DNA of 64,000 nt, from positions 62,001 to 126,000 of IMG/VR virus record IMGVR_UViG_3300023276_001086; one strand, written 5' to 3'. Within the stretch, counting starts at the first letter, position 1. Each line of letters starts with the position of its first letter. Below, piece after piece: positions 23,220 to 62,121 of this stretch. The position numbers and the translations under genes were made by a program. The DNA comes from a virus. The notes under the pieces are model-generated. The model did no database searches, was not told the DNA's origin, and saw only the letters and a program-made list of their open reading frames with translations.

Positions 23220-23345
23220 GGCCACCACCTTGCGGCATGAAGTCTCGAGCTGTCAAGAGAAATGTGCAGCAATATGCGGCACGTTTGCCTACACACACCC
23301 ACTGTGATTTTACCTGTCAATGAGGCGAAAAGCGTAACGAAATTA
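23220..23345. other. Divergent intergenic region
   Basis: About 125 bases between the minus-strand virion operon and the plus-strand block. On the minus strand two TTGACA hexamers occur (complements of TGTCAA at 23253-23258 and 23318-23323), possible -35 boxes for the virion operon; no convincing -10 was identified. On the plus strand it leads into the GGGGATAAG promoter motif. Confidence 0.35.
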
Positions 23346-23377
23346 GGGGATAAGACTATTAGAAGTCGTGGGGACTT
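23346..23377 (+). promoter_or_regulatory. Candidate phage promoter with 5' hairpin
   Basis: GGGGATAAGACTATTAG (23346-23362), almost identical to the copy at 26087, then AAGTC (23363-23367) pairing with GACTT (23373-23377). This would put the RNA 5' end near the hairpin and makes the upstream GTG at 23368 an unlikely start for the next gene. Confidence 0.55.
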
Positions 23378-23406
23378 TACCTCTGACATTTACAAAAGGA
23401 AAAGCC

Positions 23407-25284
23407 GTGAACAACGAAGTCATGATCTTCTCAACCAGTGACATTTTTACCAACCTCCGTAACCGGCCCTCCGGCCGGATAGTGGCAGAGAATAGAGACG
23501 GCGTGTACGTCTCGACTGAGAAACTGGAAGCGGCCGTCAACAGCGGGTTCAGGTGCTATGTCGCGTCAACGCGCGAGCGGCTCACTGATGGAGATAGTTG
23601 GTGGGTTGAGATCGTCGGCCGGGACAACGTGTTCCTGGCCGAAGAGCCCGAGTATTATTGCGACTACGGTCCTTCTCAGGACCGGAACGCCTGCGTGAGC
23701 AAGGGGTACACCGACCTCGCGGCCCACCTCGGCGCCGCATGGCCGACGGACAAATGGGATGGCAGACCTGCGTTCTGGCCGAGCGGGATGCCCAAAGTCG
23801 CGGAAGCCCAAGGATGGACTATGGCCAAGTCCTGGGAAGGGCCGATAGAGCTACCGAAGGCGGTACGGCAGGTGGCCAAACACCTCCAAGTGTTTGCGAA
23901 GGCCACGGTGCTGCTAGTAGGCGGTGCCGTGGTAGACGCCCTCCAGGGACGAACGCCAAAGGATTGGGACCTCGAGGTGTACGGGGTGGCGCCCCCGGAC
24001 GTGATCGAGGTGCTCGATCGACACGGGTGGAAACCCCAGGCGGTGGGGAATGCGTTTGGGGTTGTAAAGCTCGCGCACGACGCCACGGATGGCGTCAGTA
24101 TTGATATCAGCTTCCCCAAAGCTGACAACACCCGAGATGGCGAGACGGACTTCGGTCCAGTCGACATCTACATGACACCCGCCGAGGCCGCCCTCCGGCG
24201 GGACCTCACCATCAACAGCCTCATGTACGACATCGAGGCTAGGAAGGTCATCGACAGCCACGGAGGGCTAGATGACCTACGTGACGGGGTGCTTCGGGCA
24301 ACGTCGCCCGAGCACTACGCACAAGACCCGATCCGCCCCCTGCGCGCAATGCAACTCGCGGCACGCAAGGTGCCAAACGTCGACCCCCTCACCATGGCGC
24401 TCCTCCGCTCAATGGCCACCGACGAGGCGTTCGCCTCCTTGGCCATCGAACGCGTGGGGGAGGAGTTCCACAAACTGATGATGGCTGAGAAGCCATCCAT
24501 CGGTCTCGAGGTACTCCGAGAATCGGGGTGGTTGCGCTTCTTCCCTGAACTCGAGGCACTGGTCGGGTGTCCGCAGAACCCAGACCACCACCCCGAGGGT
24601 CCGGTGTGGGACCACACGATGCTAGTGGTGGACGCCATGTCCTCCCTCGCGCGCACCGGCACCTCCTGGACCGAGGAGCCCCTCGATGGCCTGCGCCGGA
24701 AGGCCCTCATGTTCGCGGCGCTCTGCCACGACTTGGGGAAGCCAGTCACGGTGCAAGACGACTTGTCGTGCCCCAAGCATGACGTCGAGGGCGAAGAGTT
24801 GGTGCGCTCCTTCCTCGGACGCCTCACCAACGAAACGGTCCTGACCGAGGCGGTCGTCGCCCTGAGTCGAAACCACATGAGACCATTCGGTCTCGTGGAC
24901 GGCAAAGCTCGAGAGTCGCGCTGGGGGCGGCTCAAGGCCGACCTGGTCAAGCACCCCAAGCTGAAGAATGGCGGTCTGCCCAGCCTCGAAGATGCTGGCT
25001 ACCTCTCCCGAGCAGACTGGATGGGCTCCCGCCCAGTCGGCACCCGCTTCGCCAACGGCTCCACCACGGAGACGGACCGCGACCACCACGAGATTGCCGA
25101 GAGGTGCTGGGAGATGCACCGCGAGCTCGAGAAGGCCGAGCCCTTGGTCGGCGGGCGCGACCTCATCAAGGCCGGGGTCAAGCCCGGACCCCAGATGGGC
25201 AAGCTGGTGAAGGCGGCCTACGTCATCCAGCTAGACGAGCCCGAGCTCGCCCTCGAGGAGCTCATCGCTCGAGTGATGTCGTGA
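23407..25284 (+). CDS. cca-like: CCA-adding enzyme / poly(A) polymerase family protein with HD domain
   Basis: About 625 aa. Residues 170-195 hold the class II nucleotidyltransferase signature LLVGGAVVDAL then DWDLEVYG, giving the paired acidic metal ligands. RRDLTINSLMYD and DPIRPLRAMQLAAR match the B-D motifs that read the tRNA end. An HD phosphohydrolase motif (CHDLGKP) lies near residue 440. The family adds or repairs the 3' CCA of tRNAs. The first 150 residues are an extra domain of unknown kind. Start chosen at GTG 23407, with AAAGGA upstream, because the promoter motif lies too close to the earlier GTG. Next door is a tRNA-like element, an attractive but unproven substrate. Confidence 0.85.
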   Translation: MNNEVMIFSTSDIFTNLRNRPSGRIVAENRDGVYVSTEKLEAAVNSGFRCYVASTRERLTDGDSWWVEIVGRDNVFLAEEPEYYCDYGPSQDRNACVSKGYTDLAAHLGAAWPTDKWDGRPAFWPSGMPKVAEAQGWTMAKSWEGPIELPKAVRQVAKHLQVFAKATVLLVGGAVVDALQGRTPKDWDLEVYGVAPPDVIEVLDRHGWKPQAVGNAFGVVKLAHDATDGVSIDISFPKADNTRDGETDFGPVDIYMTPAEAALRRDLTINSLMYDIEARKVIDSHGGLDDLRDGVLRATSPEHYAQDPIRPLRAMQLAARKVPNVDPLTMALLRSMATDEAFASLAIERVGEEFHKLMMAEKPSIGLEVLRESGWLRFFPELEALVGCPQNPDHHPEGPVWDHTMLVVDAMSSLARTGTSWTEEPLDGLRRKALMFAALCHDLGKPVTVQDDLSCPKHDVEGEELVRSFLGRLTNETVLTEAVVALSRNHMRPFGLVDGKARESRWGRLKADLVKHPKLKNGGLPSLEDAGYLSRADWMGSRPVGTRFANGSTTETDRDHHEIAERCWEMHRELEKAEPLVGGRDLIKAGVKPGPQMGKLVKAAYVIQLDEPELALEELIARVMS

Positions 25285-25451
25285 GCCTCCCCGTTGAAGA
25301 GAAGAAGCGGCTGGGCTCTCACTGGGAAGCGGCGGAGGACCCCCGCCTCCGCGCACGCCGCAACCTCATGCGGGCCACCAGCTGGGTCGACGCCCCAGAG
25401 CCCCCCAAAGAAGAGGGGTACTACTGGCCACCAAGGAACCGCAGGAAATAA
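25281..25451 (+). CDS. Small basic protein coupled to the CCA-enzyme gene (56 aa)
   Basis: GTG start overlaps the TGA stop of the CCA-like gene (GTGA). The product is charged with Arg-rich (RLRARRNLMRATSW) and Pro/Trp/Tyr segments (EEGYYWPPRNRRK). It is too short to classify. Coupling implies coexpression with the nucleotidyltransferase. Confidence 0.6.
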   Translation: MSLPVEEKKRLGSHWEAAEDPRLRARRNLMRATSWVDAPEPPKEEGYYWPPRNRRK

Positions 25452-25455
25452 AGCG

Positions 25456-25490
25456 CTGACACTCGTCAGGCTCCTGTGGTTCTTTCTCTA
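25456..25490 (+). terminator. Weak terminator hairpin
   Basis: CTGAC pairs with GTCAG around a four-base loop, then CTCCTGTGGTTCTTTCTCTAGCTAGG. The stem is only 5 bp; the T/C-rich tail ending in TAGCTAG matches the other terminator tails of this window. Confidence 0.35.
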
Positions 25491-25567
25491 GCTAGGTATG
25501 CAAAAACACTAACAAATCCGTGATAGGTAGTGTGCGGACTTTGGTAACTAACTAAGAAGGAGGATGC

Positions 25568-25705
25568 GTGTGGCAGATAGAAGTTCCGAGGGAAGAGGAG
25601 ATCGAACCACTTCACGTGTGTCGGTTCTGCGGAGCCAACATCGAGACGATGGAGGACCTGAGACTGGGGATATGCCCGTGGTGCAAGACGAGGCACGATT
25701 TCTAG
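25568..25705 (+). CDS. Small zinc-ribbon protein (45 aa)
   Basis: GTG start just after AAGGAGG. CRFC (residues 18-21) and CPWC (36-39) form a compact zinc ribbon, ending KTRHDF. It overlaps the start of the ParB-like gene in another frame. It is supported by the strong ribosome site and the clean CxxC spacing. Likely a small regulator or takeover protein. Confidence 0.65.
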   Translation: MWQIEVPREEEIEPLHVCRFCGANIETMEDLRLGICPWCKTRHDF

Positions 25706-26082
25706 GGCACACCTGCACCACCAATCGCGGTGGTGTCTACCGAAGCTGGCCGGTCCTTGACCTATGGGAGCTGGCCAAAGACCTACACACCTTCGAGCTC
25801 CCACCCGAACAGCTCCCCGAGTTCGACTTCTACATCGACTCGGAGCCACGGTTCTTCTGGTGGTCCCGGGCTCGAGGGACCAAAGAACAGTTCACGATGC
25901 GTGATCTGGCAGACCACATCCGCCGGGTCAACGATGCCGACCTGAGCTTCCCCATCTTGTTGAACCCGGAAGGGGGTGTGATGGATGGGCTGCACCGGAT
26001 GATGAAGGCCCACATCCTGGGCGTGTGCGTGCGTGTTCAGCAGTTCGAGGAGTGGCCCCCAGAAGGTGCAAAACCGCAGTAA
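25672..26082 (+). CDS. ParB/Srx-like domain protein (136 aa)
   Basis: VLDLWELAKDLHTFELPPEQ, then TMRDLADHIRRVNDADLSFP, then GGVMDGLHRMMKAHILG. The last segment is the D-G-x-H-R-x-x-A core of ParB-like nuclease/CTPase folds. Start ATG at 25672 is inside the preceding small gene; an earlier ATG at 25564 in the same frame abuts the ribosome site and its product would be shadow. Such single-domain ParB-like proteins in phages are of unknown role. Confidence 0.6.
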   Translation: MPVVQDEARFLGHTCTTNRGGVYRSWPVLDLWELAKDLHTFELPPEQLPEFDFYIDSEPRFFWWSRARGTKEQFTMRDLADHIRRVNDADLSFPILLNPEGGVMDGLHRMMKAHILGVCVRVQQFEEWPPEGAKPQ

Positions 26083-26086
26083 AACT

Positions 26087-26125
26087 GGGGATAAGACTAA
26101 TAGTGATCTTGGAGGTGCTACCTCC
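26087..26125 (+). promoter_or_regulatory. Candidate phage promoter with 5' hairpin
   Basis: GGGGATAAGACTAATAG (26087-26103) starts four bases after a stop codon. Six to eight bases on, GGAGGT (26111-26116) pairs with ACCTCC (26120-26125) around a 3-base loop. The arrangement repeats that at 23346 and lies 11 bases before the tRNA-like element, which it would transcribe. Confidence 0.55.
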
Positions 26126-26135
26126 GAATCATTAT

Positions 26136-26314
26136 GGGGACCGCGAGTTCCGTCTTGTGAAACTGAAGGATGACCAATCCTAAAGTAACACCGTTGAAAG
26201 GCCTGGTAAGCCTGACACTGATGATGGATGGTACGCTCGAACGCCAAGGAGAAGGAGGGTTGATCGCCTCTGGACTTTGGTTGTTTACTGGTTCGACTCC
26301 AGTCGGTCCCCCCA
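26136..26314 (+). ncRNA. tRNA-like RNA: acceptor stem, T-arm and CCA, with ~100-nt excess
   Basis: GGGACCG (26137-26143) pairs perfectly with CGGTCCC (26304-26310); G26136/C26311 can add an eighth pair. ACTGG (26287-26291), loop TTCGACT, CCAGT (26299-26303) is a canonical T-arm directly joined to the acceptor strand, and CCA (26312-26314) is encoded. AGTT/AACT (26146-26149/26161-26164) could be a D-like arm. GGATGACCAA (26168-26177) can pair with TTGGTTGTTT (26277-26286), with some G-U pairs, next to the T-arm, as helix P2 does in tmRNA. A normal tRNA would be about 76 nt; this is 178. It lacks the tmRNA D-domain consensus and a clear tag. It could be a tRNA with an insertion, a reduced tmRNA-like RNA, or a tRNA mimic. 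Confidence 0.5.
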
Positions 26315-26982
26315 TGGCACACATGGACAACGAAGCCCGCAAGGGAAACGGCTCTAACACGACACCCTCAAACGCCGAGTTCGTCGATGAAACCGACGCG
26401 GCCGAAATATTCGCCAGCCACCTATCTCGCCTGGAGCGACAGGTCGAGACCCTCGTGGCCGACGCCGCAGACGCGGCAGAGAATGCCGAGGATGCGGCTA
26501 AATACGCCGAGCGCGAGCGGCGACTAGGCCTGAGCCATGTCGAGCGTCTCAGAGACGACGCCGACCAAGCCCGCTTCGCGCTCGCCGACGCCAACGCCGA
26601 CTACATCGGCGTGCGCACCGCACAATATGTGGACGCCTGCGCGGCGGCGGACAAAGCCGAAGCTGAGGCTGAGGCTCTCGCGCAGGCCACCATCGAAGAG
26701 TTCAATTCGATGGCGCCAGTAGAGCAGGCGAAGGCTCTGCTCGCCGAAAAGCTCGGCGATGATGCGGCTGACGCGATCCTGTTCGCACTCACTGCGAGGG
26801 AGCAGGAAAGGGCGGCAACTCGCCGCAAGAAGATTGCCACCGCCCTGAAGGTCGGGGCCTCGATGGCCGCGATGGGCGGGCTCTATGGAGGGATCATCGG
26901 GATGGCCGTCGAGGCCGCCAAGCCCAAGACCCGCAGGGCCAAGATCGCAACCAAGTTGGTGAATTGGGCCTTCGCCCGCTAG
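26314..26982 (+). CDS. Coiled-coil protein with C-terminal hydrophobic segment
   Basis: About 222 aa from ATG 26314 (its A is the last base of the CCA) or 219 from 26323. The middle is Ala/Glu/Asp-rich coiled coil (DAADAAENAEDAAKYAERER and on). Near the C-terminus VGASMAAMGGLYGGIIGMAV is hydrophobic and could insert in a membrane, followed by a basic end. No ribosome site precedes 26314; AAGGAGAAGGAGGG at 26246-26259 instead precedes an in-frame TTG at 26260 whose product would read through the tRNA-like T-arm. Start is therefore unresolved and may be regulated by the RNA structure. Confidence 0.7.
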   Translation: MAHMDNEARKGNGSNTTPSNAEFVDETDAAEIFASHLSRLERQVETLVADAADAAENAEDAAKYAERERRLGLSHVERLRDDADQARFALADANADYIGVRTAQYVDACAAADKAEAEAEALAQATIEEFNSMAPVEQAKALLAEKLGDDAADAILFALTAREQERAATRRKKIATALKVGASMAAMGGLYGGIIGMAVEAAKPKTRRAKIATKLVNWAFAR

Positions 26983-26994
26983 CGCATCTCAATG

Positions 26995-27047
26995 GGGGAA
27001 CCGGAATAGTCCGGTTCCCCTCCGACTGTGGAGAATTCTTTTTAGCT
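26995..27047 (+). terminator. Strong terminator of the plus-strand block
   Basis: GGGGAACCGG (26995-27004) pairs perfectly with CCGGTTCCCC (27011-27020) around AATAGT, 13 bases after the stop. A T-tract, ATTCTTTTTAGCTG, follows some 17 bases later. The 10-bp GC-rich stem should terminate even without an adjacent T-run. Confidence 0.7.
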
Positions 27048-27056
27048 GATGACGTA

Positions 27057-27380
27057 TGATCTGAGAGGGCCCCCTCTCTGTGGCGGTTTTACTTCAACTA
27101 GGTAAGTCTAGTAAGACCCTCTAATTTTACTTTAGATAGAACTAGAGAGGATAATGAGGGGGTCTTACTAGATACCCCTAGTTGAAGTAAAACATCTAGA
27201 GAGAAAGAGCCTCTCTGGATCACCCAGTACAAATAGGAGGGTCTTACTAGACTTACCTAGTTGAAGTAAAACATCTAGAGAGAAAGAGCCTCTCTGGATC
27301 ACCCAGTACAAATAGGAGGGTCTTACTAGATACCCCTAGTTGAAGTAAAACACCTAGAGAGAAAGAGCCTCTCTGGATCA
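27057..27380. repeat. Array of hairpin plus ACTAG-N6-CTAGT palindrome units
   Basis: Four units, one in plus orientation (palindrome 27097-27112) and three in minus (27167-27182, 27246-27261, 27325-27340). Each joins a hairpin of the GAGAGG/CCTCTC type, a GTTTTACTTC tract, the palindrome ACTAG-N6-CTAGT, and AAGACCCTC. The last two minus units repeat with a 79-bp period. The array fills the gap between convergent genes, so the hairpin-T-tract parts may be tandem terminators for both strands. The palindrome looks like a dimeric repressor operator. The N6 differs in kind (GTAAGT/ACTTAC or ATACCC). Confidence 0.75.
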
Positions 27381-27393
27381 AACGGGCGTAACT

Positions 27394-61991: not shown

Positions 61992-62011
61992 TCTCGCTCT
62001 CCTTTCAGCTT

Positions 62012-62121
62012 TTACTTCAACTAGGTAAGTCTAGTAAGACCCTCCTATAATATATTAGGGGGTCTTACTAGATACCCCTATCTGTAGTAAAACCACCATA
62101 GAGAAGGAGCCCTCTCAGATC
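62012..62121. repeat. Second ACTAG-N6-CTAGT site with hairpin and facing partial unit
   Basis: A plus-orientation unit (palindrome ACTAG-GTAAGT-CTAGT at 62020-62035) faces a minus unit (62067-62121, with degenerate palindrome and GAGAGGGC...hairpin). Between them lies TATAATATATTA, AT-rich and close to -10 boxes on both strands. The order plus-spacer-minus is the same as at 27097-27182. It separates the LAGLIDADG gene from the 38-aa membrane gene and may contain terminator, promoter and operator together. Confidence 0.65.

Follow-up and report, generated by a model that had tools for sequence, protein, structure and literature searches.

A candidate histidine-type tRNA-like structure in the putative 5' leader of a coiled-coil gene of a dsDNA phage

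The window analyzed here is a stretch of 64,000 nt from a virus (positions 62,001 to 126,000 of the 167,832-base record IMGVR_UViG_3300023276_001086), and coordinates without a contig name refer to it. Neither ARAGORN nor Rfam at the gathering threshold calls a tRNA or tmRNA in the window or in the complete record. According to synteny, the segment 23.3-27.4 kb is an insertion relative to the related phage G005 (178.5 kb; the terminase relatives include G005 and G008, the latter of 133.5 kb). The insertion comprises a gene for a CCA-adding enzyme, small ORFs, the tRNA-like RNA considered below, a coiled-coil gene and three 79-nt repeats. The main features are:

23407-25284, plus strand: gene for a CCA-adding tRNA nucleotidyltransferase (GTG 23407 being its likely start; same promoter type; Pfam domains PolyA_pol, PolyA_pol_RNAbd and HD)
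26087-26103, plus strand: phage promoter-like motif GGGGATAAGACTAATAG (second copy at 23346-23362 before the CCA-enzyme gene; chance expectation for the window 0)
26109-26127, plus strand: leader hairpin TTGGAGGTGCTACCTCCGA, found by folding (short hairpins also stand in this position behind several other promoter copies)
26136-26143, plus strand: 5' acceptor strand GGGGACCG, pairing with 26304-26311 (p 0.89-1.0); G26136 is position -1
26144-26239, plus strand: arm A of the RNAfold minimum free energy (MFE) structure, a helix 26144-26155/26226-26239 with hairpins 26157-26191 and 26192-26220 and small purine-rich internal loops
26240-26285, plus strand: arm B, a predicted hairpin with the GGAGG site 26254-26258 paired inside (outer pair p 1.0, inner p 0.99)
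26287-26303, plus strand: T-arm ACTGG-TTCGACT-CCAGT, abutting the 3' acceptor strand
26304-26311, plus strand: 3' acceptor strand CGGTCCC with discriminator C26311 (C73, paired with G-1), from sequence and folding
26312-26314, plus strand: encoded CCA, its final A being the first base of ATG 26314
26314-26982, plus strand: downstream gene of 222 aa, an alanine-rich coiled coil with a hydrophobic stretch near the C terminus (the coding signal rises at ATG 26314)
26991-27040, plus strand: terminator-like inverted repeats GGGGGAACCGGA..TCCGGTTCCCC, then CTCCGACTGTGGAG AATTCTTTTT

The nearby gene that the original prediction described as CCA-enzyme-like does encode a CCA-adding enzyme, judging by its Pfam domains. 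Its best NCBIfam model is TIGR02692 (actinobacterial CCA tRNA nucleotidyltransferase), scoring below the model's cut-off, and by this one weak match the host phylum is likely Actinobacteria. The enzyme has an N-terminal extension of ~170 residues with no function assigned. The 79-nt direct repeats (27153-27389) separate the cassette from the genes that follow, with related copies near 27068-27127 and 62010-62048 and with inverted copies as well; they might constitute a small repeat that is mobile or regulatory. Among the relatives, G008 has 37 tRNAs, and G005 (IMGVR_UViG_3300033485_000001) carries a canonical phage tmRNA (L031 1735-2104, tag ANTDNYAPLAQAA) with tRNA-Met directly 3' of it.

The promoter motif and 5' hairpin claimed for the start of the element are real, and both match other units of the phage. 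In particular, the motif GGGGATAAGACTAWTAG, present at 23346 and 26087, has further copies in the genome and is found with 2-3 mismatches in related phages, in many cases with a short leader hairpin behind it. Copies of the promoter-like motif in the form GGGNATAAGACTATTAG lie at the same two window positions, at 125417, 126468 and 159611 of G000, and in L040 and L041, this motif being common to distantly related phages. From the pattern of promoter and leader hairpin, the tRNA-like RNA is placed in the 5' leader of what appears to be one transcription unit, in the order promoter, hairpin, RNA, coiled-coil gene, terminator-like repeats.

According to the codon statistics, coding starts at ATG 26314, with the stretch 26260-26313 being ambiguous; the reading frame itself is open from 26170. 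The bases directly 5' of this ATG (CGGTCCCCCC) contain no Shine-Dalgarno sequence. The strong GGAGG site had been expected to start translation through the T-arm, but the codon statistics give no clear coding before ATG 26314. The GGAGG immediately precedes TTG 26260, and only the AAGGAG 8 bases upstream is well spaced for this codon; TTG 26260 could be an alternative start, with translation proceeding through the T-arm.

Inspection of the sequence places the tRNA-like element at 26136-26314, with the acceptor stem, the abutting T-arm and the CCA exactly where they had been claimed, the A of the ATG (A26314) indeed being the last A of the CCA. GGGACCG (26137-26143) and CGGTCCC (26304-26310) form a 7-bp acceptor stem, which is extended by G26136:C26311 as an eighth pair, and all 13 of the 13 acceptor and T-arm pairs are Watson-Crick.

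In first-order Markov random sequence (102 Mb, one strand) there are 146 T-arms of this type, five of them with a CCA in register; in two of these five a 7-bp acceptor strand of whatever pairing lies no more than 400 nt away, and one has a Watson-Crick strand. The strict combination thus arises about once per 102 Mb, or ~0.003 times per genome on both strands, with the eighth pair left uncounted. The chance of the three features occurring in register is, as asserted, very low, although the estimate is weakened by selection, as many windows may have been screened for the original prediction, so that coincidence keeps some weight. The only other GU-tolerant match in the 168-kb record (L006 12380, minus strand) lies within an open reading frame and was set aside as chance, as were two T-arms in related phages (L039 and L048), both within reading frames.

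The sole relative carrying the RNA is the near-identical contig IMGVR_UViG_3300023112_000011, which is identical over 23300-27060 and hence shows no covariation. At the sensitivity used, no diverged homologue was found in IMG/VR, INPHARED phages, plasmids or GTDB genomes. Searches for a diverged relative with the coiled-coil gene, a 172-aa ORF, the CCA enzyme and the same acceptor in gapped form, and in plasmids and phage records, returned only the near-identical contig; in the collections searched, the coiled-coil gene has no homologue besides that of the near-identical phage. The 14-18 nt BLAST matches to related records reflect chance or coding similarity over short lengths. Among sub-threshold BLAST matches to phages, 3' ends of tRNA-His and tRNA-Tyr are listed first.

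The pattern of T-arm, C73 and CCATGG occurs at 52 sites in the viral collection. ARAGORN recognizes 33 of them as tRNAs, all except one being tRNA-His, so that in this collection a T-arm of this sort with C73-CCATGG after it is a mark of tRNA genes. Among the remaining 19 sites, nine have a full T-arm, three of these nine also having a Watson-Crick acceptor partner; the 26136-26314 element is the only one of the 19 that combines a full T-arm with a long-distance Watson-Crick acceptor. At several tRNA-His-type sites the A of the CCA is also the first base of an ATG at which an ORF begins (L051 6189-6262, 107 aa; L174, 105 aa; L199, 222 aa). Moreover, an unrelated viral contig (L087, minus strand, T-arm at ~2509) has a 230-nt tRNA-like sequence with a 7-bp Watson-Crick acceptor, a canonical-looking D-arm, a T-arm and CCATG; ARAGORN draws it as tRNA-Cys with a 142-nt insert, and does likewise for 12% of shuffles.

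RNAfold assigns -65.5 kcal/mol to 26135-26314 (z -2.57 relative to whole-sequence shuffles). The predicted fold is a coaxial acceptor/T stack of 13 bp with two large arms, joined by a junction with one unpaired base, and the T-arm pairs have probabilities of 0.85-1.0. The interior is more stable than most shuffles (z -2.1; 11 of 400 shuffles reach it), and when the interior is shuffled, the MFE structure retains the acceptor and T-arm in only 53 of 200 cases. With the acceptor and T-arm held fixed and the interior shuffled 1000 times, 37 sequences are as stable, 23 form a two-arm junction as tight as the real one (no more than one unpaired base), and one does both. Energy alone, with the ends fixed, is therefore only modestly unusual in this model; the structure itself is supported statistically.

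Of the features of the tRNA family (RF00005), the 7-bp acceptor, the TTCRANY T-arm and the in-register CCA are present; a normal-sized D-arm and a normal-sized anticodon arm are absent, and the covariance-model score falls short. The ends have the form of a histidine-type tRNA-like structure, G-1:C73 (G26136:C26311) standing on an 8+5 bp minihelix with CCA. The element may work like a tRNA or tmRNA yet belongs to neither class, and fits a histidine-type tRNA-like structure in its sequence features only. That it is a tRNA-derived or tRNA-mimicking structure of some sort is probable. Three explanations had been offered, namely a reduced tmRNA-like RNA, a tRNA with an insertion and a tRNA mimic controlling the next gene. 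The last fits best, in the form of a mimic that stands before the next gene and possibly controls it.

Our main reading, to which we give a probability of slightly more than one in three, is that the 5' leader of the coiled-coil mRNA contains a histidine-type tRNA-like structure that is recognized by RNase P and is either released or active in cis, leaving a nearly leaderless mRNA. An acceptor/T stack with CCA is the minimal substrate of bacterial RNase P. Here the ends would provide the 13-bp minihelix with G-1:C73 and CCA, the two large non-tRNA arms replacing the D and anticodon arms. Host RNase P would recognize the minihelix and CCA and cut 5' of G26136, and a second cut, made at the CCA or close to it, would set free a stable tRNA-like RNA. 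The coiled-coil mRNA would then begin at the AUG or a few bases away and be translated nearly leaderless. If the second cut fell 5' of the CCA, the neighboring phage CCA-adding enzyme could rebuild the end; on the other hand, an encoded CCA would make that enzyme needless unless cleavage comes before the CCA, and in bacteria CCA usually blocks cleavage by RNase Z. Both points count against this reading, as does the possible start at TTG 26260. The freed RNA might be a substrate for charging by HisRS, or might serve to decoy a tRNA-binding protein. E. coli HisRS charges a 13-bp acceptor/T minihelix that bears G-1:C73, the tRNA-His identity element (PMC9976931), and leaderless genes make up ~20% of genes in Actinobacteria (PMC3774663). 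The fullest form of this account, in which a histidine-chargeable structure with two extra arms serves as a removable 5' leader, RNase P yields both the mimic and a leaderless mRNA, and the co-inherited CCA enzyme maintains the end, seems unlikely to hold in every part.

The fold could also act purely in cis, staying in the leader and controlling translation of the coiled-coil gene, for example by binding an aminoacyl-tRNA synthetase or by hiding the GGAGG, with nothing released. We see this as a secondary possibility, suggested by the position of the element directly 5' of the start codon, by the pairing of the GGAGG within arm B (p ~0.99) and by the anticodon-like loop CUGGUAA on a hairpin of arm A. 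However, the hidden GGAGG lies at a distance of 55 nt from ATG 26314, wrongly placed for that start, and a cis operator needs no precise CCA end.

A similarly small probability goes to coincidence, that is, a T-arm and acceptor-like pairing arising by chance in an ordinary leader and first codons, with the start at TTG 26260 or ATG 26314. The identity of the sole relative and the possibly large number of windows screened are consistent with it, as are the early opening of the reading frame, the ambiguous codon score upstream of the ATG and the occurrence of the same descriptor by chance within coding sequence. Against it stand the expected frequency of the strict combination, the additional G-1:C73 pair and the tight junction, and the fact that comparable viral T-arm/CCATG sites are mostly real tRNA genes.

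Somewhat less probable is a tRNA with an insertion, or a decayed tRNA, with normal ends and a ~100-nt insert in the anticodon loop. As originally noted, the molecule is too long for a tRNA, exceeding it by ~100 nt, and it has no recognizable D-arm or anticodon arm. With introns allowed and thresholds relaxed to 90, 85 and 80%, ARAGORN does draw tRNA-Gln(ctg) at 26137-26314 with a 99-nt intron, and phages often have tRNAs, as G008 does. Still, 26% of shuffled interiors yield the identical call, and the cloverleaf left after removal of the insert is no better than with shuffled interiors, so a tRNA with an intron was rejected. Moreover, the D-arm lacks the GG motif, the genome has no other tRNA detected by the searches above, and 99 nt is below the size of any known group I intron.

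Less probable again is a reduced tmRNA that has no tag, or a decoy resembling tmRNA, by which SmpB or tmRNA would be titrated; the tag-less (TLD-only) tmRNA of mycobacteriophage DS6A is a proposed decoy of this kind (PMC4131195, PMC11915505). Besides these known phage cases, the full tmRNA of G005 speaks for it, as do two tag-less tmRNAs seen here above the Rfam tmRNA threshold and similar to that of DS6A: an 85-nt TLD-only form in IMGVR_UViG_3300025912_000012 (L117 418-502, plus strand) and a 132-nt form in IMGVR_UViG_3300037317_000025 (L094 5115-5246, minus strand), the CCA of the latter overlapping an ATG. Yet the Rfam tmRNA model RF00023, which does detect the G005 tmRNA and both tag-less forms, has no match here: at E up to 10 Rfam gives only chance matches at 26136-26314, none of them to tRNA or tmRNA models. 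The original prediction rightly noted that the tmRNA D-domain consensus is absent, since the 5' region matches GGNTTCGACNGG at 6 of 10 positions in register, a level reached by 9% of shuffles. The position of the G3.U70 alanine identity pair is occupied by G26139:C26308. No hydrophobic tag is seen by eye, and ARAGORN gives no tmRNA with these ends at a 30% threshold, although tag-less tmRNAs exist. The helix GGATGACCAA/TTGGTTGTTT, which had been likened to tmRNA P2, can be drawn but is not predicted (p 0.0), costing ~14 kcal/mol (-51.8 vs -65.5); an alternative P2 helix has a penalty of 25 kcal/mol. On the Rfam, D-domain, G3.U70 and P2 results, the reduced tmRNA was rejected.

Actinophage attP cores contain 30-45 bp of tRNA 3' halves (PMC10865867), but an attP site with a host tRNA 3' half and a chance 5' acceptor strand is already largely refuted and hardly credible, as no tyrosine or serine integrase was found in the genome and the 24-nt 3' end has no match in any of 84,980 GTDB genomes (0/84,980), leaving no matching host tRNA 3' end.

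Should the histidine-type tRNA-like leader prove real, the messenger RNA of a dsDNA phage would contain a rare mimic of tRNA that joins tRNA maturation to the expression of a neighboring gene, and the CCA-adding enzyme of a phage with no detected tRNA gene would gain a testable role. The occurrence of tag-less tmRNAs in further viral contigs points to under-annotation of phage tRNA mimics, partial tRNAs being rejected by standard programs.

Several known systems share parts of this architecture. The bacterial Y RNA YrlA likewise has a tRNA-like module in a small RNA, but the site here has no match to the Rfam YrlA covariance model and the genome has no Ro/TROVE gene, so this assignment was rejected. 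The E. coli thrS operator is also a case of tRNA mimicry in a 5' leader, acting there on ThrRS; however, thrS imitates anticodon arms, whereas here the acceptor/T-arm and CCA end are imitated and the downstream gene encodes no synthetase. The tag-less tmRNA of DS6A is, like the present element, a partial tRNA mimic of a phage that has an acceptor and a T-arm but no tag, differing in the D-domain consensus, G3.U70, P2 and Rfam tmRNA score, all absent here, and in length (about 65-130 nt vs 178 nt). With bacterial tRNA-His the element shares G-1:C73, the 8-bp acceptor, the T-arm TTCGACT and the CCA, and the CCA/ATG overlap is also seen at viral tRNA-His genes, while the element is ~100 nt longer and has no recognizable D-arm or anticodon arm. 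Finally, the plant-virus tRNA-like structures of the histidine class (TMV type) resemble it in being viral acceptor/T-arm mimics with CCA and a histidine-type end; unlike them, the present element belongs to a dsDNA phage, would lie in an mRNA 5' leader, and is modeled with no pseudoknot, as a continuous 8+5 bp stack.
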